From: Bacteroidales bacterium | Lineage (GTDB): Bacteria > Bacteroidota > Bacteroidia > Bacteroidales > Dysgonomonadaceae | Length of the DNA: 37,595 nt | Direction of reading: 5' to 3' | NCBI GenBank assembly: GCA_012837345.1 | Contig: DURL01000101.1 | Location: forward strand, 1 to 37,595 | In this document: positions 1,678 to 25,402 of the stretch, piece by piece | Layout: each line of letters begins with the position of its first letter | How positions within the stretch are numbered: position 1 is the stretch's first letter | The notes under the pieces: model-generated | The model's database searches: none | Told to the model about the DNA's origin: nothing | The model's input: the letters and a program-made list of their open reading frames with translations, nothing else | Translations under genes and position numbers: made by a program

Positions 1678-4600
1678 TTACAGCTTTGAGGGCGATTTGC
1701 CGAAATAGGCTTTGAAGGCAGCGCTGAAATACTTCACACTGGAGAAGCCACACAACTCACTCACCTCCGTGACGGTATATTTCCCTGATTGTATCAGCTT
1801 TAGTGCATGGTTTAATCGTATGCTCCTGATGAAATCGATAGGGGAGAGATCAGTCAATGACTTGATTTTCTTGTACAACAGCGAAGAACTGACATTCATC
1901 TCTGAGGCAAAGGTCTCTTTGTTGAACTGCGTGTTATCCATGTGGGTATGGACTACCTGAACTGCTTTTTTGACAAACTGATTGTCCAGTTCGTTCAGAT
2001 AAATCGATTCACCCTCTTCCTCATCGATCAGACGGAGTGCCTTCTCCCTGACGACCTTCCGGTTCTGAATGATGTTGGTTATGCGCTGGTGCAGCAGTGT
2101 CATGTCGAACGGTTTGGTCAGATAATCATCAGCCCCCAGTCCCAGCCCGTGAAGTTGTTGCGATTTTTCATTCAAAGCGGTGAGCAGGATGACCGGAATA
2201 TGGGATGTCTCGTATGTCGATTTGATCAGCCGGCAGAGTTCAAATCCATCCATATTGGGCATCATCACATCGGAGATGATCAAGTCAGGCATCTTTTTCC
2301 GGATGATATTCCAGGCTATTTCACCATCTTTTGCGGCAACAATTTTATATCTACCCTGCAATGAATGCTCCAGGAATTCTTTTAATGTATCGTTGTCTTC
2401 CACGATCACCAGAGACTCTTTATGTTCACTATCCTGGTTTGGTCCCGGGATGGATTCATCTTCCGTGAGGATGAGGGATGTCTGATTCTCATCCCATTCA
2501 ATATCTGATAGCAGTGATGGGGAAGATGACGATACCTCCTTGTAGGGTATGGTGATCCGAAACAGGGCGCCTTCATTCTCTTTGCTCTCAAGCGAAATGG
2601 TCCCTTCGTGCATGGCTACATAGTTCTTCACCAACAGCAGGCCAATGCCAGAACCGACAATGGTTGAGTTAACCACATTGTCGCCCCTGTAAAACTCCCT
2701 GAAGAGTTTTCTCTGGGCATCTTCTGAAATGCCCAATCCATAATCCTTCACTTCAAAAATCCATTTGCTTGGATCACAAGTTAGATTTATTACGACTTCA
2801 CCCTCAGGATGTGAATACTTGATGGCATTTGATAACAGGTTGTCAATCACCTTCTCAATTTTCAATTCATCCACTGCTGTTACATAAGCATCTTTGTTGC
2901 TGTTGAAAACAAGCTTAACTTTTCGTTTTGAGGCAGCAGCATCGAACATCGATTTTCGCTGGCGGATAATTTTCACCACATCTGTCATCATGAAAAAAGC
3001 CTGGCCTTTACCGATGTCTACCTTTTGGAAATCGAGCAGTTGATTCGCGACCGAAGAGAGTCGTCCTGCCTGCTCTGTGGCCAGGTTGAGGTAATAGCGT
3101 CCCTCACTGGAAAGGTTAGGCTCCTTGTTCAGTTCCTCAATCGGAGCATTGATCAGTGTCAGTGAGGTGCGTATGTCATGTGCCATGTTGGCAAAGAAGC
3201 GGATCTTGTCTTCCGCATGTTGTTGTCTGATCCGATCGATGTAAAAACGGATGATGAAGACGAGGAGTGCAACCGTCAGCAGGGTAATGATCAAACGAAA
3301 CCAGAAAGACCTCCACCAGGGAGGTGTAATTCGAATCCCCAGTGATCGTTCCTCAACAACCTGTTTAAGTGAGCTGTCGTACATCCTGATCTTAAGTGAA
3401 TAGTCACCACTGGGCATGCTGGCATAGGTGATGGCACCTGAGCTGGTCGGCTGCGTCCACTCTTCATCTGTTCCTTCCATTTTCCAGGAGAATTTCGAGT
3501 AGAGGGAGGAGGTACCGATGGGCAGAAACTCCAGTGTCAGTGTGTTTTGGTCATATTTCAGTGAGATCTCTTCCAATTCATCGATGGGAGAATCGATGAT
3601 GAAAGACTCGTTGTCACGAATTGATCGTCCGGAGATGACGATATCCTGGAAATAGATTCTTCCCTTTGAGGGTGAGAAGAGCATTGCGTCCGGTTCGAAC
3701 ATCAGTGCCCCGCTGCTGGTACCCCAGATGAGTTGTCCGTTGGTGAGCTTCAGCGATGCGTTCTGATTGAATGAGACGTTGAAAAAGGAGGGCAGGGAGG
3801 AGAATATCTCAACATTCTTTTCCCCGGTATCGAATTTACAGAGCCCCGATTCTGTACCCAGCCACAGATATTTTCCTTCCCGGAGGATACTGTTGACATA
3901 GTTTGAGAGCAACCCGTCATCCGTGGTGAACTTCTCAAATGTGTTGTCCCTCAGATTGTACCGTAGCAGGCCATCGCCGGAGGAGCCCATCCATACGTTA
4001 TCACCGATGACAATCAGGTCATGCAGGAGATACCCATCCAGGATGGTGCGTGTCTGCTCCGTTTTTTTGTCCATCAACAGCAGTCCGTAGGTGCAGGCCA
4101 GGAGCAGGTTGTCGGGCGATAGCTCCTCAATAGCATAGACCGGTTGATAAGGATAGGCTTCAAAGCGCCTTTCGCTTTCATCATAAAGGAAGATCTGTCC
4201 CAGTGGACTACCCAGCCAAAGGTCACCCTGGCTGTCCTTGAAAATATCAAAGATATAATCATTGGTAAGGGATGAAAACCCATCCTTACTGGAATAATGT
4301 GCGATCTCACGGCCCGTTTTTCCATCAATAACATAAACGCCTGATGAATAGGACCCTGCCCAGATGTTGCCGTTCCGGTCCTCACAGAGGGAGAGGAAAA
4401 CCTGTGCCTGTTCCTGCAAGTTCTGATAATAGGTGTGCCATCTGCCTGTTGCGACCTCCCAGCGGTTCACACCGTTGTTGGTGGCAAACCATATGTTTCC
4501 CCTGCTGTCCTCGATCACCTTGTTGACATTGTCATTGCTCAGTGAGTTGGGGTTGTTGATCTGATGGGTGATCTGTGTAACCTCAGCCGATTCCTGATCA

Positions 4601-5565
4601 AAGTAGGAGAGTCCACCACTGTAAGTGCAAACCCAGATACGTTTGTCCTGGTCATGGTAGATATCATAGACCCCGTTCCCTTTCAGCGAGAGCGGATTGT
4701 CAGGGTTCTCCTTGTATATGTTTAGTAACCGGTGGTTCTCAATTGTCAACTCCCAGATACCCTGCCCGTCAATACCTACCATCACGGTGGAGTCAGTATT
4801 GGGCACAATGGCATGAATGGGTTGATTGGGAAAAGGTTTCAGGGGTGATTCGCTCAACTTGTTACTGTCAAGGTCATACAAATACAAACCATTGGCACTG
4901 GTACCCACCCAAACCATTTTGTCTCCTTGCACGTGATGTAATTTAGACACCTTCAGCTCTTCACCCTCTTCATATGTGTATAGGTGCCGGTCGGTAAGTG
5001 TGTAGGTGTTCAACAGCCAAAAGCCATTGTTGGTTCCCATTAACAGATGCAGCTCGTCGAGCCAGATAAAATCCTGGATATCGGTATATTTCTCTTCTCC
5101 TATTGTGATCAGCTTGTTGTCCTGGAATTTATGCAATCCGGTTGTAGCCGCGATCAGGATCGATCCATAACGGTCAACAGCGATCCTGTTCAGTACCAGA
5201 TGGGTGTCGTTCAGTGGTTTGCGGATGTCAATCAGCAAGTCAAAACGGTCATACAGTTCGTTGTAGTGAAATATCTGCCCGTTGTTGGTGAAAGCAAGGA
5301 GTGAGTCGTTGTCGTACAGCAGCTTTGTATAGATGATGTTGGGTGTTTCGTAGGGTAACTGATAGATGTGGTAACTGTTGTCAGTCAATCGCAGTATGCC
5401 GCTTTTTGAGGATGCCCAGATAAAGCCGTCCCTGTCCTTGCATACCGAAGCCACCTCCCTCATGCTGATCCCGTGTATGGAGTTGATGTCATAGAACTTC
5501 ACATTGGAGGAGTAGCTGAAAGAGACAGAAAGAAGGAGAACGGCAATTATGATTCGGGTTTTCAT
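1678..5565 (-). CDS. Hybrid two-component system sensor/regulator (HTCS) no. 1
   Basis: Single-protein sensor and transcription factor of PUL-type HTCS architecture, 1295 aa from ATG 5565. An upstream in-frame TTG at 5571 adds only two residues. After a signal peptide (MKTRIIIAVLLLSVSFSYS) comes a long periplasmic sensor of about 700 residues made of Reg_prop beta-propeller repeats (motifs such as DRDGFIWASS and DSRGNIWFATNNG) and a Y_Y_Y domain. One membrane helix follows at about 756-776. The cytoplasmic part has a HisKA domain with phospho-acceptor H796 (MAHDIRTSL), an HATPase with GSGIGLLLVK, a receiver domain with D1099 (IISDVMMPNMDG), and an AraC-type helix-turn-helix at the C-terminus ending SPSKL. 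It should bind a xylan-derived oligosaccharide in the periplasm and activate this locus. Which operon it controls, as opposed to HTCS no. 2, cannot be read from sequence. Confidence 0.96.
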   Translation of the reverse strand: MKTRIIIAVLLLSVSFSYSSNVKFYDINSIHGISMREVASVCKDRDGFIWASSKSGILRLTDNSYHIYQLPYETPNIIYTKLLYDNDSLLAFTNNGQIFHYNELYDRFDLLIDIRKPLNDTHLVLNRIAVDRYGSILIAATTGLHKFQDNKLITIGEEKYTDIQDFIWLDELHLLMGTNNGFWLLNTYTLTDRHLYTYEEGEELKVSKLHHVQGDKMVWVGTSANGLYLYDLDSNKLSESPLKPFPNQPIHAIVPNTDSTVMVGIDGQGIWELTIENHRLLNIYKENPDNPLSLKGNGVYDIYHDQDKRIWVCTYSGGLSYFDQESAEVTQITHQINNPNSLSNDNVNKVIEDSRGNIWFATNNGVNRWEVATGRWHTYYQNLQEQAQVFLSLCEDRNGNIWAGSYSSGVYVIDGKTGREIAHYSSKDGFSSLTNDYIFDIFKDSQGDLWLGSPLGQIFLYDESERRFEAYPYQPVYAIEELSPDNLLLACTYGLLLMDKKTEQTRTILDGYLLHDLIVIGDNVWMGSSGDGLLRYNLRDNTFEKFTTDDGLLSNYVNSILREGKYLWLGTESGLCKFDTGEKNVEIFSSLPSFFNVSFNQNASLKLTNGQLIWGTSSGALMFEPDAMLFSPSKGRIYFQDIVISGRSIRDNESFIIDSPIDELEEISLKYDQNTLTLEFLPIGTSSLYSKFSWKMEGTDEEWTQPTSSGAITYASMPSGDYSLKIRMYDSSLKQVVEERSLGIRITPPWWRSFWFRLIITLLTVALLVFIIRFYIDRIRQQHAEDKIRFFANMAHDIRTSLTLINAPIEELNKEPNLSSEGRYYLNLATEQAGRLSSVANQLLDFQKVDIGKGQAFFMMTDVVKIIRQRKSMFDAAASKRKVKLVFNSNKDAYVTAVDELKIEKVIDNLLSNAIKYSHPEGEVVINLTCDPSKWIFEVKDYGLGISEDAQRKLFREFYRGDNVVNSTIVGSGIGLLLVKNYVAMHEGTISLESKENEGALFRITIPYKEVSSSSPSLLSDIEWDENQTSLILTEDESIPGPNQDSEHKESLVIVEDNDTLKEFLEHSLQGRYKIVAAKDGEIAWNIIRKKMPDLIISDVMMPNMDGFELCRLIKSTYETSHIPVILLTALNEKSQQLHGLGLGADDYLTKPFDMTLLHQRITNIIQNRKVVREKALRLIDEEEGESIYLNELDNQFVKKAVQVVHTHMDNTQFNKETFASEMNVSSSLLYKKIKSLTDLSPIDFIRSIRLNHALKLIQSGKYTVTEVSELCGFSSVKYFSAAFKAYFGKSPSKL

Positions 5566-5669
5566 CGACAATTATATTCTTGTAGTTCTGTCATGCGGTC
5601 AACGAGGTTTTTTATCTAACCGGCAACGGTATTCCCTCTCACAACATGGAAAATGGCACAATGATACAT

Positions 5670-5745: not shown

Positions 5746-5877
5746 TCACTGTTTCATCCCATCATAATCAATCCCCGAATTCTGAATCCGGAAGAAATCG
5801 AAAGAGACCTCAAATGGTGTCTCCGGCTTGGTGGTATCGGAATCAAACCAGGAGATAATTGAAAAAATTATTCCGTC
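5746..5877 (-). pseudogene. Probable 3' remnant of a lost gene (C-terminal beta-sandwich tail)
   Basis: Downstream of the amidohydrolase the minus strand holds 43 sense codons ending in TGA at 5746-5748, with no start codon of their own. The peptide is protein-like in composition and codon choice: it includes SIISWFDSD, TTKPETPFEVSFDFFRIQNS and GIDYDGMKQ. The FDFFRI motif near the end recalls the DFDYFRI-type strand that closes GH43-associated C-terminal domains; the GH43_12 protein in this window ends with DFDYYRI. I infer a decayed gene whose 5' part was deleted when the sugar-oxidation genes were inserted or the locus was rearranged. It could instead be chance. The frame overlaps the last three codons of the amidohydrolase. 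The rest of the 302-bp gap holds the HTCS promoter. Confidence 0.35.
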
Positions 5878-6791
5878 ATATTTTTGATATAGGGCATCTC
5901 CGGTAATGCACCGAAGCCATAGAACTTTTGTGCGTTGAGGCCCAGGAAGAGTGCTTTTTCGGTATCGGTAAGCAGGGAAGACCGGACGATGAAATCATAC
6001 GACATCCGATAGGTGATGGCCACCATGGTGCGGGGATAATCCGATCCCCACATCAGCTTGTCGATCCCCACCAGGCTGATCGCTTCGCGGATGGCCCGGA
6101 CAGCCCCTGCAAAGGGGTAAAACTCATCGTTAAAGAGCCAGGTGATTCCACCCGACTCAATCATCACCTGGTCATACCGCGCCAGCCTGATCTGTTCCTG
6201 CCACCCATCACGCGTCACCATGCCGAAATGACCGATGGCGATCTTCAGTGAGGGACAGGCTGCAATGATCTCCTCCATCTCCGCCACCTGTGTGGCGCCG
6301 TCGGCCAGGTCGATGGAGAGGATGATTCCCTTCTCCTGCATCAGGTGAAAGAGCTGCATCATCTCATCACCGGTGAGCCATATCCTGCCGTTGTCGGTGA
6401 TCAGCCGTTGTGCAGGTATCTTGATGGCCCTGAACCCTTTTCCGATCAGTTGCTCCGCCTCCCGGTAGAAACCGGGCTTGCGCAGGTCCACCATGCCGCA
6501 GCAGAGAAACCGGTCGGGATAGGTCTGCTGCACCTCCATCAGGTAGTCGTTTTGGTTCCCGTCGATATATTCCTGTGTGATCACGCTGGCTGCCACCTGT
6601 GCGTAATCCATATTGGATAGAAATATCTCCGCGCTGTTCCTGCCGTCGGTCATGTAAGGCGGCAGCATCTGCCGCACTTCACCCATGAAGAGCGATCTGC
6701 CGTTCGTCATTGTTTTGATCTGCAGGCCGTTCACCTCGGCATCCTGTGACAGCCAGAGGTGAGCATGTGCATCTATCAGGAGGGTGCTCAT
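5868..6791 (-). CDS. Amidohydrolase-fold sugar lactonase (COG3618-like; L-fucono/L-galactono-lactonase candidate)
   Basis: 307-aa cytoplasmic protein with no signal peptide, of the Amidohydro_2 TIM-barrel family that includes L-fuconolactonase. Visible motifs are the N-terminal metal-binding HxH (IDAHAHLW, H9 and H11), a strand-end histidine in IAIGHFG, and the catalytic aspartate D251 in MWGSDYPR. The start overlaps the stop of the alcohol dehydrogenase gene by 4 bp (ATGA), so the two are probably translationally coupled. Its neighbours are a sugar dehydrogenase of the aldo-keto reductase family and a GH95 glycosidase. I infer that it opens the aldonolactone made by the aldo-keto reductase. 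A decarboxylase or another hydrolase of the same fold cannot be excluded. It is the last intact gene of the operon. Confidence 0.85.
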   Translation of the reverse strand: MSTLLIDAHAHLWLSQDAEVNGLQIKTMTNGRSLFMGEVRQMLPPYMTDGRNSAEIFLSNMDYAQVAASVITQEYIDGNQNDYLMEVQQTYPDRFLCCGMVDLRKPGFYREAEQLIGKGFRAIKIPAQRLITDNGRIWLTGDEMMQLFHLMQEKGIILSIDLADGATQVAEMEEIIAACPSLKIAIGHFGMVTRDGWQEQIRLARYDQVMIESGGITWLFNDEFYPFAGAVRAIREAISLVGIDKLMWGSDYPRTMVAITYRMSYDFIVRSSLLTDTEKALFLGLNAQKFYGFGALPEMPYIKNMTE

Positions 6792-7810
6792 GATTCAAAG
6801 CCGATTAGATACCTGAATACCTTGCCGGGGTTTGAGGCCCAATGCTCCAGTGCAGCCTGTGCCTCTTCCGGGGCAAAGATACCGGAGATCAGTTTCTCTA
6901 CCGGGCAGCGTCCCTCCCTGAGATAGGCGATAACAGCCCTGAAATCGGATGGCAGCGCATTGCGTGATCCCCTGATGTCCAACTCTTTCTTTACAAAGTA
7001 CTGGGTGTCGAAAGCGATCTCCTCCTTTGCATAACCGATATAAACCACTCTGCCGGTGAAGGCAGCGGCAGCGATGGCTGTGCGATAGGTCTCGGGGCGG
7101 CCCACCGCCTCAATCACCACATTGACACCCCGTTGCCCTGTGATCTCCATGATCCGTGCCCTGATATCCTCTTTCGAAGAATCGATGACCTCGCGGGCTC
7201 CCAGCTCTGCTGCCAGGGAGAGTTTCTCTGCATCGAGATCCACGGCGATCACCCTGGCACCCCTGTTTACTGCGCAGATGATGGCTCCCAGTCCGATCAT
7301 ACCGCAGCCGATCACCATCACGCTATCGCTGTCTTTCACCTCTGCACGGTTCACGGCATGAAAACCCACACTCATGGGCTCCACCAGCGCCATGTCGCGC
7401 ACGGAGAGCCGGTCGTCGGTGAGCACCTTCTCCCAGGGCAGTGTGATATATTCAGCCATGGCACCATTGCGCTGTACCCCCAGTGTACGGTTGAACTCAC
7501 AGGCATTGGGTCGGTTGTTCAGACAGGCAGGACATCTTCCGCAACTGGAGTAGGGGTTGACGGTGGCGTGCATGCCGGGACGAAGGTGGGGAGGGAGATC
7601 AGCGGCTACCGCCTCAATCGTTGCCCCAATCTCGTGGCCGGGAATGACGGGGTATTGTGCCAGAGGGTTGGCACCCCTGAAGGTGTTGAGGTCGGAACCA
7701 CAGAAACCGACATATCCGATCTTTAACAAGACTTCTCCTTCTGATAATTCCGGTTTGGGAACCTCAATAAGCTGAGTGATTCCCTGACCTGTTATTTGTA
7801 ATGTTTTCAT
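6788..7810 (-). CDS. Zinc-dependent medium-chain alcohol dehydrogenase (L-galactonate 5-dehydrogenase-like)
   Basis: 340-aa MDR-family dehydrogenase. Catalytic zinc ligands are C37 (GFCGSD) and the H59-E60 pair (PGHEI). The structural-zinc cysteines are all present: C90, C93, C96 and C104. The Rossmann motif GCGMIGLG is followed by an aspartate in VIAVDLD, which favours NAD+ over NADP+. The stretch VKKELDIRGSRNALPSDF closely recalls the corresponding part of E. coli YjjN/LgoD (L-galactonate oxidoreductase) as I remember it, and sorbitol or threonine dehydrogenases to a lesser degree. If so, it would turn L-galactonate into D-tagaturonate, which joins standard hexuronate catabolism. It lies 27 bp after the aldo-keto reductase and overlaps the lactonase gene. 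The family is certain; the substrate is inferred from context. Confidence 0.88.
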   Translation of the reverse strand: MKTLQITGQGITQLIEVPKPELSEGEVLLKIGYVGFCGSDLNTFRGANPLAQYPVIPGHEIGATIEAVAADLPPHLRPGMHATVNPYSSCGRCPACLNNRPNACEFNRTLGVQRNGAMAEYITLPWEKVLTDDRLSVRDMALVEPMSVGFHAVNRAEVKDSDSVMVIGCGMIGLGAIICAVNRGARVIAVDLDAEKLSLAAELGAREVIDSSKEDIRARIMEITGQRGVNVVIEAVGRPETYRTAIAAAAFTGRVVYIGYAKEEIAFDTQYFVKKELDIRGSRNALPSDFRAVIAYLREGRCPVEKLISGIFAPEEAQAALEHWASNPGKVFRYLIGFES

Positions 7811-7837
7811 CTTCTGTTTCTTTTCAGAATATAACTG

Positions 7838-8776
7838 TCAACTATTCACCCAGCTGTCCCGAAAACCCGGCTCGAGAATAGCCCGTACTTCGCGCAGCAG
7901 TGTCATATCCAGCGGCGTGTAAGCATATCTGATTGTTCGTGATACATTCTCCGGACTGCCGGAGCTGAACAGCGTGGTGGCAATCCGCGGATTGGCCGTG
8001 CTGTAGCTTACCGCCAGCTGTTCAATGGAGACCCCCTTCGACTTGCAGTAATCGACAGCCTTTCTGGCGAGCCGTTGAAGGGCTGCCGGTGCGGGATGCC
8101 ACGACGGTGCTCCCCGTTCAGTCAGCAGTCCCATGGAGTAGGGGGATGCATTGATGACGCCCACACTGTGCGCCTCAAAAAAATTGAGGTAGTCCGCCAG
8201 TGAATCATCATTCAGCGTGTAGTGACAAAAGGAGAGGATGCTTTCAACCGTGCCGGCAGGTACATGTTCAATGACATATCTAAAATGGCGCAGATTCAGA
8301 TTGGTGATCCCGATGTGTCTGATGGTTCCCTCGTCGCGTAATTCAACCAGGGCCGGCAGGGTCTCATTGCAGACCTGCTCCAGGTCGGCAAACTCGATGT
8401 CATGTACATTGATCAGATCAATGTGGTCCACACCCAGTCGTTCCATGCTCTCATAGACGCTCTCCTGCGCCCTGGTGGCGGAGTAATCCCAGTGGTTCAC
8501 CCCATCGCTGCCGTAGCGGCCCACCTTGGTGGAGAGGTAGTAACGACTTCGATCCACCCCTCTCAATGCCTTGCCCAGCACGTTCTCTGCTTTCAGATGG
8601 CCATAGTAGGGAGAGACATCGATGAAGTTGACACCCTGCTCCAGGGCAGTGTGTACCGCCAGGATACCTTCTTCCTCCTTCATCGGGTGGAAGACAGCAC
8701 CGAGGGAGGAGGCACCGAAGCTGATCCTGGAGAGTTTCATCCCGGTCTGGCCCAATTCGCGGTATTCCATATTCAT
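7838..8776 (-). CDS. Aldo-keto reductase, L-galactose/L-fucose 1-dehydrogenase-like
   Basis: 312-aa cytoplasmic AKR. The tetrad is D53, Y58, K84 and H125 (IDVSPYYG, STKVGRYG, NVHDIEF). Several stretches parallel plant L-galactose dehydrogenase as I recall it: FGASSLGAVF, the HDIEF...ETLPAL region, PAGTVESILSFCHY, SPYSMGLLTERGAPSWHPA and CKSKG. These go beyond the general AKR fold, so I favour NAD(P)-dependent oxidation of L-galactose (or its 6-deoxy form L-fucose) to the aldonolactone. D-threo-aldose dehydrogenases belong to the same group and are the main alternative. The gene starts 38 bp after the GH95 stop. A second ATG lies two codons in. The lactonase expected for the next step is two genes downstream. 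Confidence 0.88.
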   Translation of the reverse strand: MNMEYRELGQTGMKLSRISFGASSLGAVFHPMKEEEGILAVHTALEQGVNFIDVSPYYGHLKAENVLGKALRGVDRSRYYLSTKVGRYGSDGVNHWDYSATRAQESVYESMERLGVDHIDLINVHDIEFADLEQVCNETLPALVELRDEGTIRHIGITNLNLRHFRYVIEHVPAGTVESILSFCHYTLNDDSLADYLNFFEAHSVGVINASPYSMGLLTERGAPSWHPAPAALQRLARKAVDYCKSKGVSIEQLAVSYSTANPRIATTLFSSGSPENVSRTIRYAYTPLDMTLLREVRAILEPGFRDSWVNS

Positions 8777-8814
8777 TCTTCTCTGTGATAAGTAATGGGC
8801 GGTTTGATACCTGC

Positions 8815-11232
8815 CTATTTTTTTTTGATCTGATATTGCTTGCCCGCTTCGGTCCGGAGATCATACTCATAGACCTTTCGGAGCTCACTCTTCACGGCCA
8901 CAACCGCCTCATCGCTAATCAGAGGTTCTTTCACGGCTGCTTTTCGGAAGAGAGCATTGGGATTCACACCAGTGGCGGTGGTGAGTCCTTTGCCCTTCAG
9001 TGGCACATAAGAGCGGATACGCAGGTTCCCACCGAGTTGTGAGGTGACAATGGCCTCTTCCAGTGTCCCTTCTTTCCATTTTATTTCCACTTCGAATCCT
9101 CCACGGGCAACGATGCCTGAAACCGATCCGCGATCCCATTGCTGTGGCAGTGCCGGCAACAGATGCACCGCTCCGTCGTGACTCTGCAGCAGCATCTCCG
9201 CCACACCGGCTGTCAGGCCGAAGTTGCCGTCGATCTGAAAAGGGGGGTGGGCCGTGAAGAGGTTGGGATAGGTTCTCCCGTTTCTGTTGCCATCGGGACC
9301 GGCAAGCGTGAGCATATTCCGGACAATCCTGTAGGCATGATCCCCATCCAGGAGACGAGCCCAGAGGTTCACCTTCCAGCCGATGGACCAGCCGGTAGCC
9401 TGATCGCCACGATAGAGCAGCGACTGTCTGGCGGCATCAAACAGCTCCGGTGTGGTGTAGGGGGATATCTGGTTGCCGGGATAGAGACCATAGAGGTGCG
9501 ACACATGACGGTGTTCGTTTTTGGGGTCATCCACGTCCTGCAACCACTCCTGCAGCTGTGCATGTCTGCCGATCTGCATCGGCGGCAGCCTGTAGGCCAT
9601 GTCACGCAGCTGTTGGCTGTAATGCGGATCCCTGCCCAGCAGTTCGTTTGCTTCGGCTGTACGCGTAAACAGATCGAACAGCAGCTGGTTATCCATGGTG
9701 GTGCCGGCCGTCACAGGACCCTGCTCGGGCGACACAGATGGGCTTACCACCATCCATTTGTTGTCGGGGTCCGGAATCAGTGTGGAGAGGAAAAAGTCGG
9801 CCGCCCCCTTCATCACGGGGAAGTATTGTTTCAGAAAAGCCTTGTCGCCGGTAAACAGGTAGTGCTCCCAGAGATGCTGGCAGAGCCATGCACCACCGGT
9901 GGGCCACATCCCGGCTGCTGCAAAATCGACCGGGCCGGTGATTCTCCAGATATCGGTGTTGTGGTGTACCACCCATCCGTCGGCGTTGTACATGCTGCGT
10001 GCCGTATGTTGTCCGGTGCGACTCAGCTCCTCCATCATCCGGAAGAGGGGTTGATGCGTCTCGGTGAGGTTGGTAACCTCCGCCGGCCAGTAGTTCATCT
10101 CGGCATTGATGTTGAGCGTATACTTGCTGTCCCATGCCGGGTAGGTGCTGTTGTTCCAGATGCCCTGCAGGTTGGCCGGCTGTCCCCCCGGCTGTGAGGA
10201 GGAGATCAGCAGGTAACGGCCAAACTGTGTCAGCAGGGTGACAAGGGCGGGATCCTCTGTCTCTTTGAAAGAGGTGATCCGCTGTGTGGTGGTCCGCTTC
10301 CGGCTGTTATCCTGTTGTCCCAGATCAAGGCTGAATCGGTGAAACTGATGGCTATAGATCTCACTGTGACTTTTGAGCGCTTTGCTGTATTGCTTCGTGA
10401 GTGCCGCTCCCAGCAGTCCGGAGGCCACTGCGGCAGGATCCCTGTCCAGCGTTTGATAATCCCGGAAGCTGGTGCCAATGGAGAGGTAAAGTATCGCTTC
10501 CGTGGCGTTGGTGACGCGGATCTGCTCCTCACTTACCTCCACTGTCCCACCTTTCTGACGGATTGTTGTCTGAATCTCATATTCTATTTTCCCGTCGATC
10601 CCCTCATGGTCTACTCCCCTGCCACGCAGCACCAGCCGGTCACCTCTCTGCATGACGGTGTGTTGTGAGGGATTGCGGTAGGCCGCCGCAAACGAGATGC
10701 TTCTCTTTTTGTCGGCGGTCAGACGCAGGATGATCACGTCGTCGGCAAATGAGGAGAATAGCTCACGCGTGAAGGTGATGCCGTTCACGTTGTAACGTGT
10801 TGTGGCGACAGCACGATCAAGGTCCAGTTCACGGTAGTAATCCTGCCACTTGTCGTGACCCTCGAAATGGAGCAGCAGGCAGCCGGCTGTCTGGTAGGGC
10901 ATGCCATGGGGACCCCCGAAGAAGGTCTCGTTGATCCGTTTGTCGGCCTCCCCATACGCTTTCCGGAAGATCATCTCCTGTACTTCCCTGAGTGCACCGG
11001 CTGCTTTGAGATTGTCGTTCCGGTGAGGTGCTCCTCCCCAGAGGGTCTCCTCGTTGAGCTGGATCTCCTCTTCTGCGGGATTGCCATAGACCATGGCACC
11101 CAGCCTGCTGTTTCCCAGGGGGAGTGCCTCTTCCCATACCTTCGCCGGTGTATCGTACCACAGCTTCAGCTCCTGTGCCGGGAGATGAAGTGAAAAGATG
11201 AGCAGGAGTGCCAGATATACGATTCGTTGCAT
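8815..11232 (-). CDS. GH95 alpha-L-galactosidase / alpha-L-fucosidase
   Basis: 805 aa with a signal peptide ([20 protein letters not shown]), so probably periplasmic. The GH95 signature is clear: an N-terminal beta-sandwich ([18 protein letters not shown]), the asparagine pair N374 and N376 in [10 protein letters not shown] that activates water, E503 in SVSPEQGP (general acid) and D668 in FQIDGNFG. Length is normal for the family. GH95 includes both alpha-1,2-L-fucosidases and alpha-L-galactosidases. The B. ovatus complex-xylan locus has a GH95 reported to act on L-galactose of corn xylan, and the xylan context here makes that the better guess. The start codon shares one base with the GH31 stop (TAATG), so translation is probably coupled. 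Three sugar-oxidation genes follow directly. Confidence 0.95.
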
Positions 11233-13877
11233 TATCTCTCTTTTTTATCCAGTAATGTGATCTTTTTTCTCTTTCCGTTGTAGGTGATTGTCACTGTTTC
11301 GCCCGGGTCAGATTGAGGCTTCATCACCAACAAACGGAAGGTGCGATGATGCTCCATGCCGGGGAAAGTACCTTTGCGTGCTCCGATCGTCAAGGTTGCA
11401 GCCGACTCGTTCCATCTCATCTCAATGGTGCTGCAGAGGCCCTTTTCATAGTGATAATTGTCCCCTTCATCTTCGTAGAGGGTGAAGGATGCATCGCTCC
11501 CCGGGTAGATGCGTATCTCCATCGGTTCATCCGATGGCTGTGAGGTCTGTTGCCCGGCAGGTCCCATCGGAATAATGGAACCGGCCCTGACAAAGAGGGG
11601 GATGGCGGTGAGATCGACCGGGACATCCAGTATCCGGCCTCCCTCAAATTGTTCCCCGCTCCGAAAATCGATCCACCCCTTCTCCTGTCTGGGAAGATAG
11701 AGCGACCATTGTTTTACCCCCGGTTCGGTTACCGGTGTCACCAGGAGCGAGGGACCGAACAGGAACTGATTTTTTTGTTCCAGCGCTGTCGAGTCGTCGG
11801 CAAAGTCCATCACCAGCGGACGCATCAGAGTGGAGCCGTACATGCTGACCCGCGATGCTTCCGAATAGATATAGGGGAGCAGCCGGTAGCGTAGATCGAG
11901 GGTCTGCGACACCACCTCTTCCACCGCTTCACCATATCGCCATGGCTCGGTGTTGCTCATGTAGCCATGTACCCGCAGCAATGGGAAGAAGGCAGCGGTC
12001 TGAAACCAGCGGATGAAGAGCTCGTGATAGAGTGTGTTGGAGTACTGGTCTGCGGGCCTGAAAAAGCCACCGGCGTCGTATGTCCACCAGGGCAGGCCCG
12101 TGCTCATCTGACCAAGCCCAGCGGTGATCTGGCGACGAAGTGTCTCCCAGTCGTGACCGACATCACCCGACCAGGTAGCGGTGCCATACCGCTGCATACC
12201 GGCAAAGGCGCTGCGTGTAAGGATGAAGGCACGCCGTGTGGGATCATCCTTTCGCAGTCCTTCAAATACCGTCCTGTTCACATAGAGTGGATACACATTG
12301 CGCAGCAGCTCGCCAGGCAGGGTGCCGTTCATTATCTTCCGGTGTTGCAGGTCATCATTCTCCGGTTCAGTGGCATCCAGCCACCAGGCATCGATGCCGT
12401 AAGGGAGCATCTTCGTGGAGAACTGCTTCCAATAGGCGGCAGCCGCCTCAGGATTGAAGAAATCAATCCACTCGCTGTCAGGGATATAGTATCCCTTTTT
12501 GTCCATCTCTTTGCCTACCTCCGACTGTTTGTCAATTTTCGACCAGACAGAGATCATCATCCGCAGGTTCATTGCATGCAGCTGGCGTACCATCTCTGCC
12601 GGATCGGGATAGCGCTCCTCGTCAAAGCGCATGGCATTCCAACCATGCTTACCCCAGTATTGCCAGTCCTGCACGATCACATCGACCGGAAGGCCCCTCT
12701 CCCGGAAGGTGCGGGCGTTCTCCAGCAGCTCCTCCTGTGTGTGGTAGCGCTCGCGGCAATGGATATACCCGAATGCCCAGCGCGGCAACATGGGTGTCGC
12801 ACCGGTCAGCTGACGGTAGCTTGCAATCACCTCGTCACCGTTCCCGGCAAAGATGGTGTAGTCGAGCGCCTCAGCCACCGGTGAGGAGAGGATGGTTTCA
12901 TCGGTGACCGCTCTCCAGTAGAGCTGCGGTCGATCCTGCTCCTCTCCCTCCACGATGACTTGATGGGTACCTTTCGACAGCTGCGCGATGAGTGAGGTGG
13001 TGGGTGGCAGCCAGATGTTGTTTACATCGACCAGTGTGTCGCCGTTGATCACCAGGTGATGCTTGCGCGCCATGGCCTGTCCCACGTCGAGCAGCAGTGC
13101 ATAGCTGCCGGCGGCAGGAAGCGTCAGCGTGCCGGTGAACCGGTTCATCTGTCGGGTCTCTCTTCTGTTACCGCTGGTGCCGGTGGCGTCCACCGTCACG
13201 CGCTCTCCCTGTTCATCATTGCGCAACAACGGCAGCACCTCCTCCGCCGGATTGAGGTCGGTGAGCCCGTAGTTGTTCCAGAGCAGTCCATACCCTTTGC
13301 TGGAGAGGATGAAAGGAATGGCTATCTGGCTGTTCACCTGTGTGAGCCGGCGTGACAATCCCCTGATGTTCAGCTGGCCGTCCTGAAACTGACCTGTGCC
13401 GAACAGATATTCGTCGGGAGGAGAGTGAAACCGCTGCATCACCTTGTATACCTCGATGTTATCCAGGCTGTCCGCCTCCATGATGCGCCCCCCTGCTTTT
13501 TCGCTCAGCAGGAGCGTTCCCTGCCGATCGGTAAAACTGAGCGTTCCTTTCTCCCGGTTGAAAATGGCAATGATCTGTTCCAGCTCCATCCTTATCGACG
13601 TTTCATCTTCACTCACCCTGTAGGGAGGTGGTGTCACCTGTTCGCTGTAGACCAACTCCTCCGGATATAGGCGTCTCTCCTTTTTTGTGAACGTGACACG
13701 GATGGAGCGTTCATTCAGCGGGGTGAGACGAAGCATACCCCCGCCGGTCTCGATCATCACTCCTTTCCCGGCATCAGGCACAGGAGACCGTGGTGATGCG
13801 CTGAACGACAGGAGCATCAACCAGCAGGCAATCAGGGAAACAGTTTTACAACGGGGCATTGCTGTAGAGCGTGGCAT
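11232..13877 (-). CDS. GH31 alpha-glycosidase with inserted PA14-like domain, probable alpha-xylosidase
   Basis: 881 aa from ATG 13877; the ATG at 13859 gives a more usual signal peptide ([19 protein letters not shown]) and may be the true start. The N-terminal beta-sandwich is interrupted at about residues 225-335 by a PA14-like domain ([21 protein letters not shown]). The GH31 barrel follows, with nucleophile D501 in WWLDATEPE and acid/base D572 in [11 protein letters not shown]31 enzymes with PA14 inserts in Bacteroidota PULs are typically alpha-xylosidases. An alpha-xylosidase fits complex xylans bearing terminal alpha-xylose, but alpha-glucosidase activity cannot be excluded. The gene is 19 bp from the GH43-CE6 gene and overlaps GH95 by one base. 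Confidence 0.93.
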
Positions 13878-13896
13878 TGTAGTAATGATGGTTGGT

Positions 13897-16773
13897 TCAC
13901 TTGTTCAGGATGGAGAGCATCTGATCGGCATAGCGTTCACCCAGCATCCTGTAACCCTCGGCGGAGAAGTGAAGATTGTCAGGTCCGTCTTTACAACCGG
14001 CAGAAGAGATGACATAGCTGTTGGGAATCACCTCAGGCAGTGTCTGAATAATCTCATTCATCGATGCGCAGATGCCCCCCTGATCGGCATGTACCACCTC
14101 ACCAGCCAGCAGTGGCACGGAGTTGGGTGCCAGACCCACATCATTGAGCAGACGGTCATACACCTTTTTCACTTTCAGCGGCCATTCCTTCTCACCGGTA
14201 TTCGATTCACCCTGATGCAGCAGGATTCCCTTGATGACGCCACCGTTTTTCTGGGCAAGTTGTGCCATCTCCACGAGACGTTTGTAGGGGTTGCCATCAT
14301 ACTCCGCAACCATGCTCTTCAGCCAACCGGGAGAGGTGGAAACATACTCCTGGAAGTTCTCCTTATCGAAAAGCTCAATCTTGCATCCACCCACAGCTAC
14401 GTTGATGACTCCTACTTTGATGTGAGGGGGTAATTCAGCCGTCATCTTGCGTCCGAAAAAGTCAACCGGTCCCAGACCTGTATGGCAACGTACCAAAGGA
14501 GGGATGGCTTTGTACCACTCACCTTTCACCCGTCCCAGGTCGGGGCAGTCAACTGTCTGCAACACCATGAACCGATCATCGATGCCGGTGGTATCTTCCG
14601 GTTTGAACCGTACATGTCCTTCCATGTTCGATTGCCCCAGGCAGAGATAGACATGCATCTCTTCTTTTTGTGTCTTAAACTGAATCTGATAAGTCTTCAC
14701 CACACCGTTAAAATCAAATTCAACCTTCGCAACACCCGTAGGTGAGTCAGCCTGTGTCACTGTTGCTTTCACCTTCTTATGATTGGAAGAAGCGCTCACA
14801 GTGGGGGTCATGGTTGTACCGAAAGGTAGCATATAGGAAGTCTCAAAAAGATTATATCCTACAATACCGTTTGCATTGGTCGATCTGACAGGGTGAGCTG
14901 GAATCTCAATCTCATTGCCGTTGACGGTGATGGTGACCGATGGAACCACCGGAGGAGCGATCTTCTTCTTTTTCGAACTGAAGCCAAGGCCTGTCAAATC
15001 GAAAAGTTCGGTTGATTTCGGACCTTCCGCTACCAGGAAGATGGCATGCTTGCCGTCGAGGTGATCTACATAGCGGGCCACATCGATTGTATAGTGTGTC
15101 ATCTCCTGTGCTGAGTTGGCCGGAACCACAATTTCCCCAATCTTGGTTCCTTTCCAGGTCTCATTCTCCCAGGGACCGTCGAGCCATACATTCACCTTGA
15201 ACGCATCCGATGTCCTGGGTGTCAGGAACAGATTGAATGCGGTTTTGTTTCTTTTTTTGGTTCCCTTGAATGCTTTCAATCCTTTGGTCTCGTTTTTCAA
15301 ACCACCAAAGCCGAAGTACTTGTAACCGATCACATGACCATCCTTCACATTGCCGATTGGCATGTGGCTGTTCCAGATATCCCATGCATCCTGCTGGATG
15401 CTGATATCCGAAAGGTAGCAAGCATAGCCGGCGGAATAGTATTGATAGGGATCGAGACCGTAGATGTGGAACCCTTCGGAGGTGACTTCCGCACCTTTGT
15501 ACTCTCTCCCTTTGCCGTCTTTGGCGCTCCATATTTTGTCATCGCCGTAGGGATCGTATGCCCTGATTGTCACCATACCCCCTTCCGATACCGGCTTCTC
15601 ATCCCATTCCACCTTGATGGGAGCCACCATCGGCTGGCGTGCAAAGCCGAAGCTGCGCGGCGGCCTGTGGTAAAAGACATACCATTGGTCGTTGATCAGC
15701 TCGATGCTGCCATGGGTGTTGTGCCCGGCGTAGGATGTTTCGATAGCCGATCCATCGCGGTTCAATACCGGAGCCCTCGAATCGACCAGCACCCCACCAC
15801 TTCTCCAGGGACCCAGGGGAGAGTCACCCACTGCATAACGCAGGGTAGAGTTGGAGCTTTCAATACCGTAGTCAGGACCTGAATATCCGCTGAAAACCGT
15901 GACATACTTGTTGCCCACCTTGCGGATGGAGGATGCTTCAAAGAAGTTGAATGTCTTGAGGTCCTGATCGGGGTAGATCTGCGGGTATTTTGTGCCTTCC
16001 GGATCACGGATCATACCGTAACGGGCACTTGCAGGCAGGAAATAACTGATCACCTCTGTTCCCGGTCTGAGTGAATACATGGTGTTCTGATCCAGCTGGG
16101 CGGCCAGCGATCGCTGGAATCCCCAGTAACCGTAAGCCCTGAAACCAATCTCATAATCGGGGTCGGCGGGATCGGTGACATACTCAATATAGACAGCCGG
16201 ATCAAAACCCAGGATGCTTCCGGGAATGGTACTTTTGCCATCTTCGGTCAGATTGATGGGGGTGAAAGGACCATCGGGGCGACTTCCCTTGGCAACCATC
16301 GCCTCTCTGCGTGGTCCACGGCTGTGCGGATAGAGATAATACTCTTTCGTGCCATCCTTCTTTCTGACCTCTATCAGGTCGGGGGCATACATTACATCCC
16401 ACTGACCATCTATCTGATAGGTAAAGATAGGGCCTTCATCTCTCCAACTGGAGAGATCCTCCACGGGTGCAGACCACATTCTGATATCTGGGCCGCAGTA
16501 ACTGGTAACGCGCAGGTCATGCGAGCCGATGATGTAGGCGCGGTATTTACCCGGATTGTCAGGATCCTCAAAAACACGGGGTTCTCCATCGGGCAGGTGC
16601 TCCCAGAGTGGCAGATAGGGATTGCCGGCTCCCTGGTGTACATACTTTTCTCTTGGACTGTAGGGTGGTGTAGGATTGTGTTGCCCCCTCACCAGGGCAG
16701 TTGAGATGAGTAAAAGCCCCATACAGAGCATCATTAGTCTCTCTTTTTTAGAGGTTAATCGTAAATTTTTCAT
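13897..16773 (-). CDS. Two-domain enzyme: GH43 glycosidase fused to CE6-type acetyl xylan esterase
   Basis: 958 aa with an N-terminal hydrophobic signal (LMMLCMGLLLISTALVRG). Residues about 40-390 are a GH43 propeller of the DGEPRVF / YIIGSHD type, with pKa modulator D191 (GFDPAVY) and general acid E279 (FNFFEASSI). The base is probably the aspartate of LPDGEPRVF. A carbohydrate-binding-like beta-sandwich spans about 400-600 (YQYYSAGYACYLSD, HAIFLVAEG). An Ig-like linker follows at about 620-700. From about 705 comes an SGNH/SASA esterase with S715 in CLGQSNMEG, a conserved LLHQGESN block, and D932 with H935 in DNLHFSAEGYR. The protein should deacetylate xylan and remove a side-chain or terminal sugar in one polypeptide. 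The gap to the upstream GH115 is 43 bp. Confidence 0.92.
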   Translation of the reverse strand: MKNLRLTSKKERLMMLCMGLLLISTALVRGQHNPTPPYSPREKYVHQGAGNPYLPLWEHLPDGEPRVFEDPDNPGKYRAYIIGSHDLRVTSYCGPDIRMWSAPVEDLSSWRDEGPIFTYQIDGQWDVMYAPDLIEVRKKDGTKEYYLYPHSRGPRREAMVAKGSRPDGPFTPINLTEDGKSTIPGSILGFDPAVYIEYVTDPADPDYEIGFRAYGYWGFQRSLAAQLDQNTMYSLRPGTEVISYFLPASARYGMIRDPEGTKYPQIYPDQDLKTFNFFEASSIRKVGNKYVTVFSGYSGPDYGIESSNSTLRYAVGDSPLGPWRSGGVLVDSRAPVLNRDGSAIETSYAGHNTHGSIELINDQWYVFYHRPPRSFGFARQPMVAPIKVEWDEKPVSEGGMVTIRAYDPYGDDKIWSAKDGKGREYKGAEVTSEGFHIYGLDPYQYYSAGYACYLSDISIQQDAWDIWNSHMPIGNVKDGHVIGYKYFGFGGLKNETKGLKAFKGTKKRNKTAFNLFLTPRTSDAFKVNVWLDGPWENETWKGTKIGEIVVPANSAQEMTHYTIDVARYVDHLDGKHAIFLVAEGPKSTELFDLTGLGFSSKKKKIAPPVVPSVTITVNGNEIEIPAHPVRSTNANGIVGYNLFETSYMLPFGTTMTPTVSASSNHKKVKATVTQADSPTGVAKVEFDFNGVVKTYQIQFKTQKEEMHVYLCLGQSNMEGHVRFKPEDTTGIDDRFMVLQTVDCPDLGRVKGEWYKAIPPLVRCHTGLGPVDFFGRKMTAELPPHIKVGVINVAVGGCKIELFDKENFQEYVSTSPGWLKSMVAEYDGNPYKRLVEMAQLAQKNGGVIKGILLHQGESNTGEKEWPLKVKKVYDRLLNDVGLAPNSVPLLAGEVVHADQGGICASMNEIIQTLPEVIPNSYVISSAGCKDGPDNLHFSAEGYRMLGERYADQMLSILNK

Positions 16774-16816: not shown

Positions 16817-19375
16817 CTATTCTCTTTTCATCTGATGTTCCGCACCCTTGCGACTGCTTTCCGGGGGACCCAGATAGGCTGGGTTCAAACCACCCGTGTT
16901 GATTACAATTTTCTGCAGCACGATTCCCTGATCCAGAACACGATAGCGGAGGGTGTGGATGCCGGGCTCAGTGACGGTGTGCCTGGTAGTGGATCGGATG
17001 ATATGCTCAGCCTGCCACTGCCCCAGCTCACCACGGTAATGACCATTGAAATTGACCTGCTGTGGTCTCCCTCCATCGAAGTTAACCTCGTAGCGCAATC
17101 CTCTGTTATCGTTGAAGTTGAGGGTGGGTGCCAATATCAGTTGCACTTCAACTTCTCCTGTTGATTCAAAGAGGATGTCATACTCCAGGTAAATATCCTC
17201 CTCCGGTGAGGGATATTCATTTTGTGGCAAGGTGGTGACACCCGACAGGGTTTTTCCAAAGTGGGGAATCACTGTCCAATGGATGGTACCGCTCTCTTGG
17301 CGACGGGCAAAATTTTCTGCCTCAATGGACACATATCCGTTTTGCTCAATGAAAATCTTTTCTGCTGCTGCCTCCTCCGGTGTGATGTAGGTGACACGGG
17401 GTATGATGTTGCGAGGGGGTTGCTGCCAGGAGGTGTAGCCGATACGGGGCTGGTCCATCATATGTGCCCATTTGCCATCGGCGATGACCTCGTTGTATTC
17501 CACCTGCAACAATGAGTCGCGCGTAAAACACTCTTTCACCTGGTCGGCATATTGGTTGGCACGCAGATCTTTTTTTTCCGCCAGATGGCGGTTCATTGCC
17601 ACGGCGTAGTACATCTCATAGAGGTTGCTGCTGGCATTTACCGGATAGAGCACCAGCTGATAGTAAGCATCCCACAGCTTTGCCGGCAGTTGTGCATAGA
17701 GACGAAAAGCATCAAGTGCCAGAGCGCGGTACTCGTTCACCACTCTTTCAAACTCACCGTAGTGTGCCAGGCTGTAGGTCTTTTCGTTCAGCATTTCCGG
17801 GGTGACCCTTCTGTTGTATTTCGCATAGAGGGTGAGGATACGGGCAATCTCCTCTGCGTGGGTTGCACCAAACTGTTGTGCAGCCCACTCTCTGGTATGT
17901 TCCACCAGGTTTTGCGGATTAAATTGTGCGGGATCCCAGGCCATATCGAGAAAGAAACTGATAGGGTACTCCATCGGTTTGAGGTCTCCTACGTTGACGA
18001 TCCAGAGCTTTTCCACCCCATGCTCATAGGCAAGGTTCATCTGTTCCCATACCCGCTGAATGGGATTGATGTTGATCCATTTGGAATTGCGCGGAGCTCC
18101 CACATAATCGAAATGGTAATAGATGCCGTAACCCCCTTTTCTGGGTTTGGCATCCATGCCGGGCAGCTTACGGATGTTCCCCCAGTTGTCGTCGCACAGG
18201 AGGAGCGTCACATCATCCGGCACCCGCATCCCGTGGTCATAGTAATCCTGTACCTCTTTGTACAATGCCCATACCTGTGGTGTCTGTTCCGCTTTTTTGC
18301 CGGTCACCTCGCTGATGATCTTTCGCTGATCCGCCACGATCTTTTCCAAAAGAGCGATGTTCACACCCTCTTCCATCGCTTCGTCGCCATCACCCCGCAT
18401 GCCCACGGTCACCACCTTCTCCCAGTCGCGACTTCGTTCGATGCCATATCGCCACGATTGTTGCAGTGCATCGGCGTTTTTGTTGTAGTCCCAGATATCG
18501 GGGAGGTTGTTTCGCTGCACATACCGGTGCCAGTCGGTCTGTGCCATCGCCATCGGCTCGTGGTGTGAGGTGCCCATGATGATTCCCATCTCGTTCGCCA
18601 AAACACCGTTTCGAGGATCATCATCGTAAAAGGCACTGCCCCACATTGCCGGCCAGAGATAGTTGCCTCTCAGGCGTAGGATCAATTCGAATACCTTCTC
18701 ATAGAAGGCACTGTTGAACCCTCCGAAGGTAGCGTTGGCCCATCCACTCAGTGCCGGTGCTTCATCGTTGAGGAAGATACCGCGGTAGGTCACTGCCGGT
18801 TCGCCGTCGCTATAACTTCCTTTTTGAAAATAGAGCGCCTCTTTTCTCTCTACCGGCACATCGGCCCAGTAGTACCAGGGTGAGACCCCTATCTGTTTCG
18901 AGAGCTCGTAGATGCCATAAATGGTTCCTCTCTTATCGCTGCCGGCAATCACGATGGCTTCCGCAACACCCTCACAGGGGTTGGATAGTGACTCAATGAG
19001 ATACATCTCATGCTTCCCCTTAAGTTTCGTTGCATCAAGCTTCTTTTGCTTTATGAGGGCGTCAATGGCAGAACCTGTTCCCAGGGTGCCGATGATGATT
19101 AACGGCATTTCGGTAGGGGTGAACGTTATCTGGAGGCCGGGGAGATGCCCGGTGACCTTTTCAAAATCAGTTTGCAGGTCGGAGACTGCACGTTCGATTC
19201 CTTTATCTGCGCCCGGGAAAAGCAGGATCTCCGCTCTCCTGTCGCCATTAAAAAGCACCAGGCTGTTCTCCTGCTGCTGTCTGGTGATGAAACGCTCCGC
19301 TGCATTCAGACCAGAGGTGATGAAGACGATGGCCGAAATCAGGATGAGAATAATTACTCTTTGTTTCATAAGCAT
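16817..19375 (-). CDS. GH115 xylan alpha-1,2-(4-O-methyl)glucuronidase
   Basis: 852 aa with signal peptide (QRVIILILISAIVFITSG); ATG 19369 is an alternative start two codons in. The GH115 core is unmistakable: GTIYGIYELSKQIGVSPWYY, the block YLWPAMWGSAFYDDDP with GTSHHEPMAMA, and LLCDDNWGNIRKLP. The C-terminal part (from about 690, FIEQNGYVSIEAENF) is the usual beta-sandwich that completes the active site. Family members remove (4-O-methyl-)glucuronic acid from internal as well as terminal xylose residues, which GH67 enzymes cannot do. It is predicted to act in the periplasm. The start lies 8 bp after the GH8 stop, firmly inside the operon. It is the most specific pointer to glucuronoxylan as the target. 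Confidence 0.97.
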   Translation of the reverse strand: MLMKQRVIILILISAIVFITSGLNAAERFITRQQQENSLVLFNGDRRAEILLFPGADKGIERAVSDLQTDFEKVTGHLPGLQITFTPTEMPLIIIGTLGTGSAIDALIKQKKLDATKLKGKHEMYLIESLSNPCEGVAEAIVIAGSDKRGTIYGIYELSKQIGVSPWYYWADVPVERKEALYFQKGSYSDGEPAVTYRGIFLNDEAPALSGWANATFGGFNSAFYEKVFELILRLRGNYLWPAMWGSAFYDDDPRNGVLANEMGIIMGTSHHEPMAMAQTDWHRYVQRNNLPDIWDYNKNADALQQSWRYGIERSRDWEKVVTVGMRGDGDEAMEEGVNIALLEKIVADQRKIISEVTGKKAEQTPQVWALYKEVQDYYDHGMRVPDDVTLLLCDDNWGNIRKLPGMDAKPRKGGYGIYYHFDYVGAPRNSKWININPIQRVWEQMNLAYEHGVEKLWIVNVGDLKPMEYPISFFLDMAWDPAQFNPQNLVEHTREWAAQQFGATHAEEIARILTLYAKYNRRVTPEMLNEKTYSLAHYGEFERVVNEYRALALDAFRLYAQLPAKLWDAYYQLVLYPVNASSNLYEMYYAVAMNRHLAEKKDLRANQYADQVKECFTRDSLLQVEYNEVIADGKWAHMMDQPRIGYTSWQQPPRNIIPRVTYITPEEAAAEKIFIEQNGYVSIEAENFARRQESGTIHWTVIPHFGKTLSGVTTLPQNEYPSPEEDIYLEYDILFESTGEVEVQLILAPTLNFNDNRGLRYEVNFDGGRPQQVNFNGHYRGELGQWQAEHIIRSTTRHTVTEPGIHTLRYRVLDQGIVLQKIVINTGGLNPAYLGPPESSRKGAEHQMKRE

Positions 19376-24067: not shown

Positions 24068-25402
<1,335 letters not shown>

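Follow-up and report, generated by a model that had tools for sequence, protein, structure and literature searches.

A xylan locus that also encodes sugar-oxidizing enzymes raises the questions of which sugar these enzymes act on and where the oxidation product goes. The stretch of DNA analyzed here (the window) is contig C13 in full, with 37,595 bases. It comes from a draft genome of 2.49 Mb (236 contigs, 91.9% complete), and the organism would belong to the Proteiniphilum group of the Dysgonomonadaceae. Within a xylan polysaccharide utilization locus (PUL) on this contig, a glycoside hydrolase gene of family GH95 is followed by a trio of genes encoding an aldo-keto reductase (AKR), a Zn-dependent dehydrogenase (ZnDH) and a lactonase (LAC). 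We regard it as likely that these four genes form a module for the release and oxidation of L-galactose, inserted in a complex-xylan PUL, whose product probably leaves by way of UxaE.

The four-gene module

The genes of the module are, from last to first in transcription order:

5868..6791, minus strand: amidohydrolase, predicted L-galactono-lactonase (LAC), 307 residues; PF04909, 140 bits
6788..7810, minus strand: Zn-dependent medium-chain dehydrogenase, predicted L-galactonate 5-dehydrogenase (ZnDH), 340 residues; PF00107, 111 bits, and PF08240, 81 bits
7838..8776, minus strand: AKR, predicted L-galactose 1-dehydrogenase, 312 residues; PF00248, 163 bits
8815..11232, minus strand: GH95, predicted alpha-L-galactosidase, probably exported, 805 residues; PF22124, 602 bits

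The upstream GH31 gene shares 1 base with GH95; 38 bases lie between GH95 and AKR and 27 between AKR and ZnDH, and ZnDH and LAC overlap by 4 bases. All four products score well above their Pfam cut-offs, and the reading frames, order and families that a first-pass annotation, made from the letters of the window, had proposed for four closely spaced genes were borne out.

We propose that the exported GH95 would remove terminal alpha-L-galactose from xylan oligosaccharides, and that L-galactose would enter the cytoplasm via a permease encoded elsewhere. There, AKR would convert L-galactose to L-galactono-lactone, the amidohydrolase would open the lactone to L-galactonate, and ZnDH would oxidize C5 of L-galactonate to give D-tagaturonate. 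This product would most likely be epimerized by UxaE to D-fructuronate, which an SDR-type UxuB (short-chain dehydrogenase/reductase) would reduce to D-mannonate and UxuA would dehydrate to 2-keto-3-deoxygluconate (KDG), so that one route would serve both the L-galactose and the glucuronate side chains of this xylan. The families, gene order, conserved residues, closest characterized relatives, linkage and UxaE/UxaA pattern are read directly from sequence; from them we infer all substrates and products, how L-galactose is imported and that UxaE carries the flux.

The trio stays together in other genomes, and its adjacency in the window is therefore unlikely to be a matter of chance. Among 101 genomes of the family, which comprises the own genus (here the Proteiniphilum, Petrimonas and Fermentimonas genomes) and also includes Dysgonomonas, a close AKR occurs in 36 genomes at 37 full-length places; 35 of these were read, the window and a 3.5-kb contig of G004 being left out. 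A second set of named loci comes from the best 80 of 572 relatives, 78 of them with a recognizable AKR open reading frame (ORF) and some ending early; 11 trios are common to both sets. ZnDH lies within five ORFs of AKR at 34/35 family and 67/78 named loci, and LAC does so at 32/35 and 63/78; the family loci missing LAC are L080, L087 and L092, the last two being short contigs (about 7 and 6 kb).

AKR and GH95 of the window type (E 1e-200 or better) are found together in 32 of the 101 family genomes, AKR alone in 4, GH95 alone in 14 and neither in 51 (Fisher p 3.5e-11, uncorrected for kinship; GH95 proteins that are 50-55% identical may act on different substrates). The two lie on one contig, at most 62 kb apart, in 12 of the 36 AKR genomes, and are adjacent in 3.

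L-galactose as the probable substrate

The nearest relatives of AKR and GH95, a separate L-fucose locus in the same genome, related trios that run into UxaB-UxaA and a trio beside a complex-xylan PUL in Bacteroides xylanisolvens XB1A together support L-galactose as the sugar that the module probably handles. Among solved structures, the best match of AKR is 7lh6, 'L-galactose dehydrogenase' (433 bits), followed by four more L-galactose dehydrogenases (288-344 bits) and, in sixth place, another AKR at 89 bits; the five best solved relatives thus agree with the resemblance to L-galactose dehydrogenase first suggested for this gene. AKR residues D53, Y58, K84 and H125, which we take to be the AKR tetrad, are conserved in at least 98% of 78 sequences, and no signal peptide was seen by eye in AKR.

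The other two enzymes of the trio are placed at the family level only. In ZnDH, C37, H59, E60, C90, C93, C96, C104, a glycine motif and D191, presumably with metal and cofactor roles, are conserved to the same degree, as are H9, H11, H188 and D251 of LAC. The description of ZnDH as YjjN/LgoD-like stands for the family alone, because no curated-model cut-off is reached. ZnDH belongs to the same Zn medium-chain family as Escherichia coli LgoD (YjjN), which we take to be an L-galactonate 5-dehydrogenase, and is predicted to catalyze the same reaction. A PDB search with ZnDH at a 1e-40 cut returned zero matches, and one with LAC three weak ones. The AlphaFold model of LAC (pLDDT, the predicted local distance difference test, 90; predicted template modeling score, pTM, 0.91) has Foldseek matches that include the COG3618 enzymes 4dlf and 4do7 as well as pyrone-dicarboxylate hydrolases, at 15-20% identity; together with PF04909, these matches uphold the early COG3618-type description of this predicted lactonase.

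The best solved match of the window GH95 is 4ufc (1007 bits), that is BACOVA_03438, the crystallized alpha-L-galactosidase of Bacteroides ovatus (PMC4491172, accessible text), against 714 bits for the fucosidase 7kmq (accessible text of PMC8245568). Window T372, N374, N376 and E503 align with BACOVA_03438 T370, N372, N374 and E501, the residues singled out in the accessible part of PMC4491172. The GH95 of B. xylanisolvens XB1A, which scores 1881 bits to 4ufc, has these four residues too and, when aligned with the window GH95, shows 54.9% identity. The N-terminus of the window protein looks signal-peptide-like by eye. From these similarities, it is predicted to be an alpha-L-galactosidase of the BACOVA_03438 type. 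The Thr agrees with L-galactose without being proof of it, since a fucosidase, XacAfc95, carries Thr too (PMC8245568, in part); the use of the Thr/His residue as proof of substrate was dropped for this reason.

In XB1A (L170, L209, L210), a trio lies immediately upstream of a complex-xylan PUL matching the B. ovatus PUL, and the GH95 of this PUL is a near-copy of the crystallized alpha-L-galactosidase. The order is LacI, AKR, LAC, a permease of the major facilitator superfamily (MFS) and ZnDH, then GH43, GH3, GH43, GH31, SusC, a SASA-domain gene, a hybrid two-component system regulator, GH95 and GH115, spread over some 50 kb and interspersed with unlabelled ORFs.

A different reading would make the locus an L-fucose module, in which GH95 is a fucosidase and the trio oxidizes L-fucose via L-fucono-lactone and L-fuconate. 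We consider it improbable. It can draw on the fact that family GH95 includes fucosidases (PMC8245568, accessible part), on GH29-family genes within five ORFs of related AKRs at 6/35 family and 18/78 named loci, and on three MR_MLE-type matches in the genome, two of them over cut-off. LAC matches the L-fucono-lactonase model NF052480 weakly, at 26 bits, but the cut-off is 400, the cluster has no dehydratase, and AKR is nearest to L-galactose dehydrogenases. Furthermore, contig C24 carries a separate set of L-fucose genes (L104:6932-19994): a GntR regulator, FucI (1134 bits against the L-fucose isomerase cut-off of 850), a 142-residue protein, FucP (598 against 280) and, further along, a second GH95, whose scores to 4ufc and 7kmq are nearly alike (602 and 577 bits) and which has His where BACOVA_03438 has Thr. 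Two related trios, besides, lead into UxaB-UxaA, which we expect to be unfit for 6-deoxy sugars. The low standing of the L-fucose reading rests on this FucI/FucP/GH95 locus on another contig, on the missed fucono-lactonase cut-off and on the UxaB-UxaA genes beside related trios. The chain from L-galactose to D-tagaturonate, as first outlined for this locus, is well supported at the level of sequence, with L-fucose disfavored.

Fate of D-tagaturonate

For L-galactose, the product of the trio would be D-tagaturonate. Related trios at other loci point to one way on: at L175 and L191 the trio runs directly into UxaB and UxaA, at L078 UxaB-UxaA lie beyond the LacI gene of the trio, at L159 UxaB comes after the trio, and at L099 a UxaA with its frame interrupted by a stop lies near it. 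The labels rest on Pfam in L175 and on 59-64% similarity at L191 and L078, and the UxaA of L078 was also found in the family-wide UxaA search.

The entry of D-tagaturonate into UxaB/UxaA, which the first-pass annotation had envisaged, does not fit the genome of the window. In this genome (92% complete), neither PF04295 (UxaA) nor PF08125 (mannitol-dehydrogenase-type UxaB/UxuB) was found, both being found in control genomes; for PF08125 the search covered this genome only, controls apart. UxaE, a UxuB-type SDR and UxuA were found instead. Particularly, contig C83 carries in a row UxaC, UxaE (PF16257, 186 bits against a cut-off of 27.1), an SDR of the D-mannonate oxidoreductase type (368 bits against 281) and a PfkB kinase. 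Contig C128 (L112), the second xylan locus of the genome, carries an FGGY sugar kinase, a D-mannonate-oxidoreductase-like SDR (57% identical to that of C83), UxuA, GH67, an unlabelled ORF, GH10 and an MFS_2 transporter.

It could be argued that the same module still sends D-tagaturonate through UxaB/UxaA, as in E. coli, and that these genes fell into assembly gaps. A genome 92% complete in 236 contigs would allow this, and UxaA does occur in 14/36 AKR genomes; however, it occurs in 0/39 genomes of the own genus, single-contig ones included, and UxaE is present in the genome of the window. We give this alternative little chance.

The route from D-tagaturonate via D-fructuronate and D-mannonate is favored because the own genus has UxaE (28 of its 39 genomes) and no UxaA, including the single-contig genome G054, in which AKR, GH95, UxaE and UxuA are present. 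Across the 101 family genomes, UxaE is found in 44 and UxaA in 25, with no overlap, and the split follows genus lines; among the 36 AKR genomes the counts are 19 and 14, with neither in 3. These patterns suggest the conversion of tagaturonate to fructuronate, mannonate and KDG in the genome of the window, and in some genera the entire altronate branch seems to have been replaced. As for the wider picture, chances appear slightly better than even that in the Proteiniphilum group UxaE replaced the altronate branch, with L-galactose, galacturonate and glucuronate all passing through D-fructuronate and D-mannonate, and that a trio whose descent differs from that of most trios in the genus was inserted between GH95 and GH3 of a xylan PUL, so that the locus would both strip its rare side-chain sugar and burn it.

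Setting and origin of the insertion

The remaining labelled genes of the window are:

1678..5571, minus strand: hybrid two-component system regulator, downstream of the trio (Reg_prop, HisKA, HATPase_c, Response_reg, HTH_18)
11232..13877, minus strand: GH31 (PF01055)
13897..16773, minus strand: SASA-domain carbohydrate esterase (PF03629)
16817..19375, minus strand: GH115, alpha-glucuronidase family (PF15979/PF17829)
19384..20655, minus strand: GH8 (PF01270)
20708..22294, minus strand: GH43 with C2 domain (PF04616/PF17851)
22576..23712, minus strand: GH10 xylanase family (PF00331)
24068..25390, minus strand: putative esterase (PF00756)
25429..27108, minus strand: SusD-like protein (PF07980)
27126..30173, minus strand: SusC-like TonB-dependent transporter (PF00593/PF07715/PF13715)

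Read along the minus strand, the order is SusC, SusD, esterase, GH10, GH43, GH8, GH115, SASA esterase, GH31, GH95, AKR, ZnDH, LAC and regulator, and the GH10, GH8, GH115, GH43 and SusCD genes around the module confirm the xylan PUL setting assigned at first. GH31 scores below its NCBIfam cut-off (236 against 606 bits), and our guess of an alpha-xylosidase comes from its counterpart in PMC4491172. A promoter and terminator scan of 5400-14000 gave counts near chance expectation (3 promoter-like sites against 4.8 expected, 8 terminator-like against 5.7) and for this reason was not used.

Among the family AKR loci read, the trio stands in this PUL only in the window, G087 and G065. In the latter two it lies between the GH95 and GH3 genes of the same PUL. 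In Proteiniphilum UBA1403 the PUL is the same and GH95 and GH3 overlap by 4 bases, and Petrimonas and Fermentimonas have the same PUL with no trio there. The GH3 of 1273-1311 residues that fills the interval between trio and regulator in G087 and G065 (L071:3225-7046) is missing from the window (5572-5867). A kinship of the window regulator with the large trio-adjacent gene of G087 was considered and ruled out, this gene being the GH3.

In a tree of 78 concatenated trios, the trios from the window, G087 and G065 fall into one clade (support 1.0), nested in a larger group of 14-15 trios (0.99). This group also holds trios of Parabacteroides, Tannerella and Marinilabiliaceae, as well as those linked to GH29 in G051 and G064, two genomes of the own genus; its inner nodes are weak (0 to 0.79). 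The remaining own-genus trios form a separate cluster, and G064 has one of each kind. Judging from these comparisons, the trio was inserted between GH95 and GH3 either by transfer or from a paralogue, and the tree is compatible with both.

Weighing the proposal

Besides the Thr shared with a fucosidase, several observations weigh against an L-galactose module with a UxaE exit. Neither a permease nor a mutarotase is present in the gene cluster of the window, and KDPG (2-keto-3-deoxy-6-phosphogluconate) aldolase, PF01081, was not found in its genome; the early description of the module as complete-looking therefore goes too far. ZnDH stays below every NCBIfam cut-off (best IolM, 180 against 450 bits, then NF007489, 177 against 376), and LAC reaches no curated model. 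GH95 of this kind occurs without AKR in the 14 family genomes counted above, and in G094 (L088) the trio has beside it a GH95 of a different type, which matches 2rdy best (823 bits, against 625 for 4ufc). Three AKR genomes (G021, G060 and G065) have neither UxaA nor UxaE, and one of them, G065 (77% complete), has the arrangement of the window; a UxuA match is found in just 14 of the 19 AKR genomes with UxaE. Finally, in L212-L214, the PULs most closely related to this one, the trio is absent from the site, from which it follows that the linkage of trio and PUL is not old.

It is very improbable that the pathway handles both L-glucose and L-galactose, as that of Luteolibacter LG18 does, or that the true substrate is a different L-hexose or D-arabinose: LguA and LguD of that strain accept L-glucose, L-galactose and their acids (PMC12632266, accessible text) and AKRs are, as a matter of general knowledge, often promiscuous, but the window has a GH95 of the L-galactosidase type and L-glucose is generally not known as a xylan side chain.

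Relation to known systems

Returning to the L-galactose module, its core pathway is already known. Hobbs et al. 2014 reportedly described the L-galactose pathway of Phocaeicola (Bacteroides) vulgatus, with BVU_0219, BVU_0220 and BVU_0222, and we take BVU_0220 to be part of it. Compared by enzyme type, the window has the same three enzymes, ending in D-tagaturonate; given these shared enzyme types, the enzymes are not coupled in a new way here. BVU_0219 is cited as L-galactose dehydrogenase and BVU_0222 as L-galactonate dehydrogenase in the accessible text of PMC12632266 (2025). Labelled glycan genes, from a limited label set, lie within five ORFs of AKR at 22/35 family and 30/78 named loci, that is, often beside the trio and not always, and in Xanthomonas catabolic genes for xyloglucan lie next to the depolymerizing locus (PMC8245568, in part), which speaks against regarding the coupling to glycan breakdown as unusual, as was done initially.

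P. vulgatus was not among the best 80 of the 572 relatives. The Bacteroides relatives L169, L170 and L189 have the order AKR-LAC-MFS-ZnDH, which fits the BVU locus numbering. In the window, by contrast with P. vulgatus, the order is AKR-ZnDH-LAC, a permease is lacking, the trio is joined to a GH95 of its own within a xylan PUL, and UxaE probably provides the exit in place of UxaA/UxaB. The window thus stands apart in its location, three family genomes having the trio inserted between GH95 and GH3, and probably in its exit.

B. ovatus PUL-XylL (accessible text of PMC4491172) is likewise a xylan PUL in which GH31, GH115 and GH43 accompany a GH95 of the type present in the window; the accessible text is silent on the fate of the released L-galactose. 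This PUL is given as bacova_03417-50 and the main text, as far as accessible, does not name bacova_03416 (PMC4491172), so that the L-galactose cassette would seem to be situated a little beyond the limits published for the PUL. The same source, in its accessible part, supports the early statement that corn xylan carries L-galactose; the word 'eucalyptus', the other source then mentioned, is absent from that text. UxaE is the tagaturonate-fructuronate epimerase of Thermotoga maritima (PMC6353982, in part) and is also named in a figure legend on PULs of Flavobacteriaceae (PMC4891872, in part). The homologue in the genome of the window is over the Pfam cut-off and lies beside UxaC and a UxuB-type SDR; unlike the Thermotoga enzyme, it is predicted to serve L-galactose in addition to galacturonate. 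In a search with scant coverage of subscription papers, and with no claim of absence from print, we found no literature joining L-galactose, aldo-keto reductase, xylan and Bacteroidetes.

In plant fiber, L-galactose makes up a small share but turns up repeatedly, in complex xylan and in rhamnogalacturonan II. If our proposal is correct, Bacteroidales have a portable L-galactose cassette, attached several times to sugar-releasing loci, whose lower half exists either as UxaBA or as UxaE, the two never being found together in the 101 family genomes; the fate of L-galactose would then be predictable from the genome, and neighboring permeases, LacI regulators, mutarotase-like proteins, GH29 and DUF5703 proteins would gain testable substrate predictions.

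Neighbors of related trios

The companions of the trio comprise an MFS permease at 12 of the 35 family loci, LacI at 8, a RhaM-like mutarotase at 7, GH29 at 6 and GH95 at 3; for the 78 named loci the counts are MFS 30, GH29 18, LacI 16, RhaM-like 15 and GH95 4. A GH95 51-52% identical to that of the window adjoins trio genes at the named loci L127, L128 and L138; the start of another (80%) follows the trio of L157, and carries little weight, being just 96 residues at a contig end. At L100, L101 and L109, of one family genus including D. alginatilytica, the trio lies beside BT_1020-like and GH78 genes, a setting that we read as degradation of rhamnogalacturonan II. L-galactose is listed among the sugars of this polysaccharide (PMC6353982, accessible part).

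A 128-residue PF05336 protein beside the trio (L073:12649-13035) missed the L-rhamnose mutarotase cut-off (21.6 against 99.6 bits), and such RhaM-like proteins beside trios are candidate L-galactose mutarotases. The MFS permease beside another trio (L088:12347-13603), kept in relatives and absent from the window, is a candidate L-galactose importer. Several genomes of the Proteiniphilum group and related ones (L075, L076, L090 and relatives) have a GH2-like gene (873 residues) and a DUF5703 gene (767-795 residues) before the trio, with SASA in L090. In three family loci the trio is followed by an aldolase of the DHDPS (dihydrodipicolinate synthase) family, which might act in place of KDPG aldolase.

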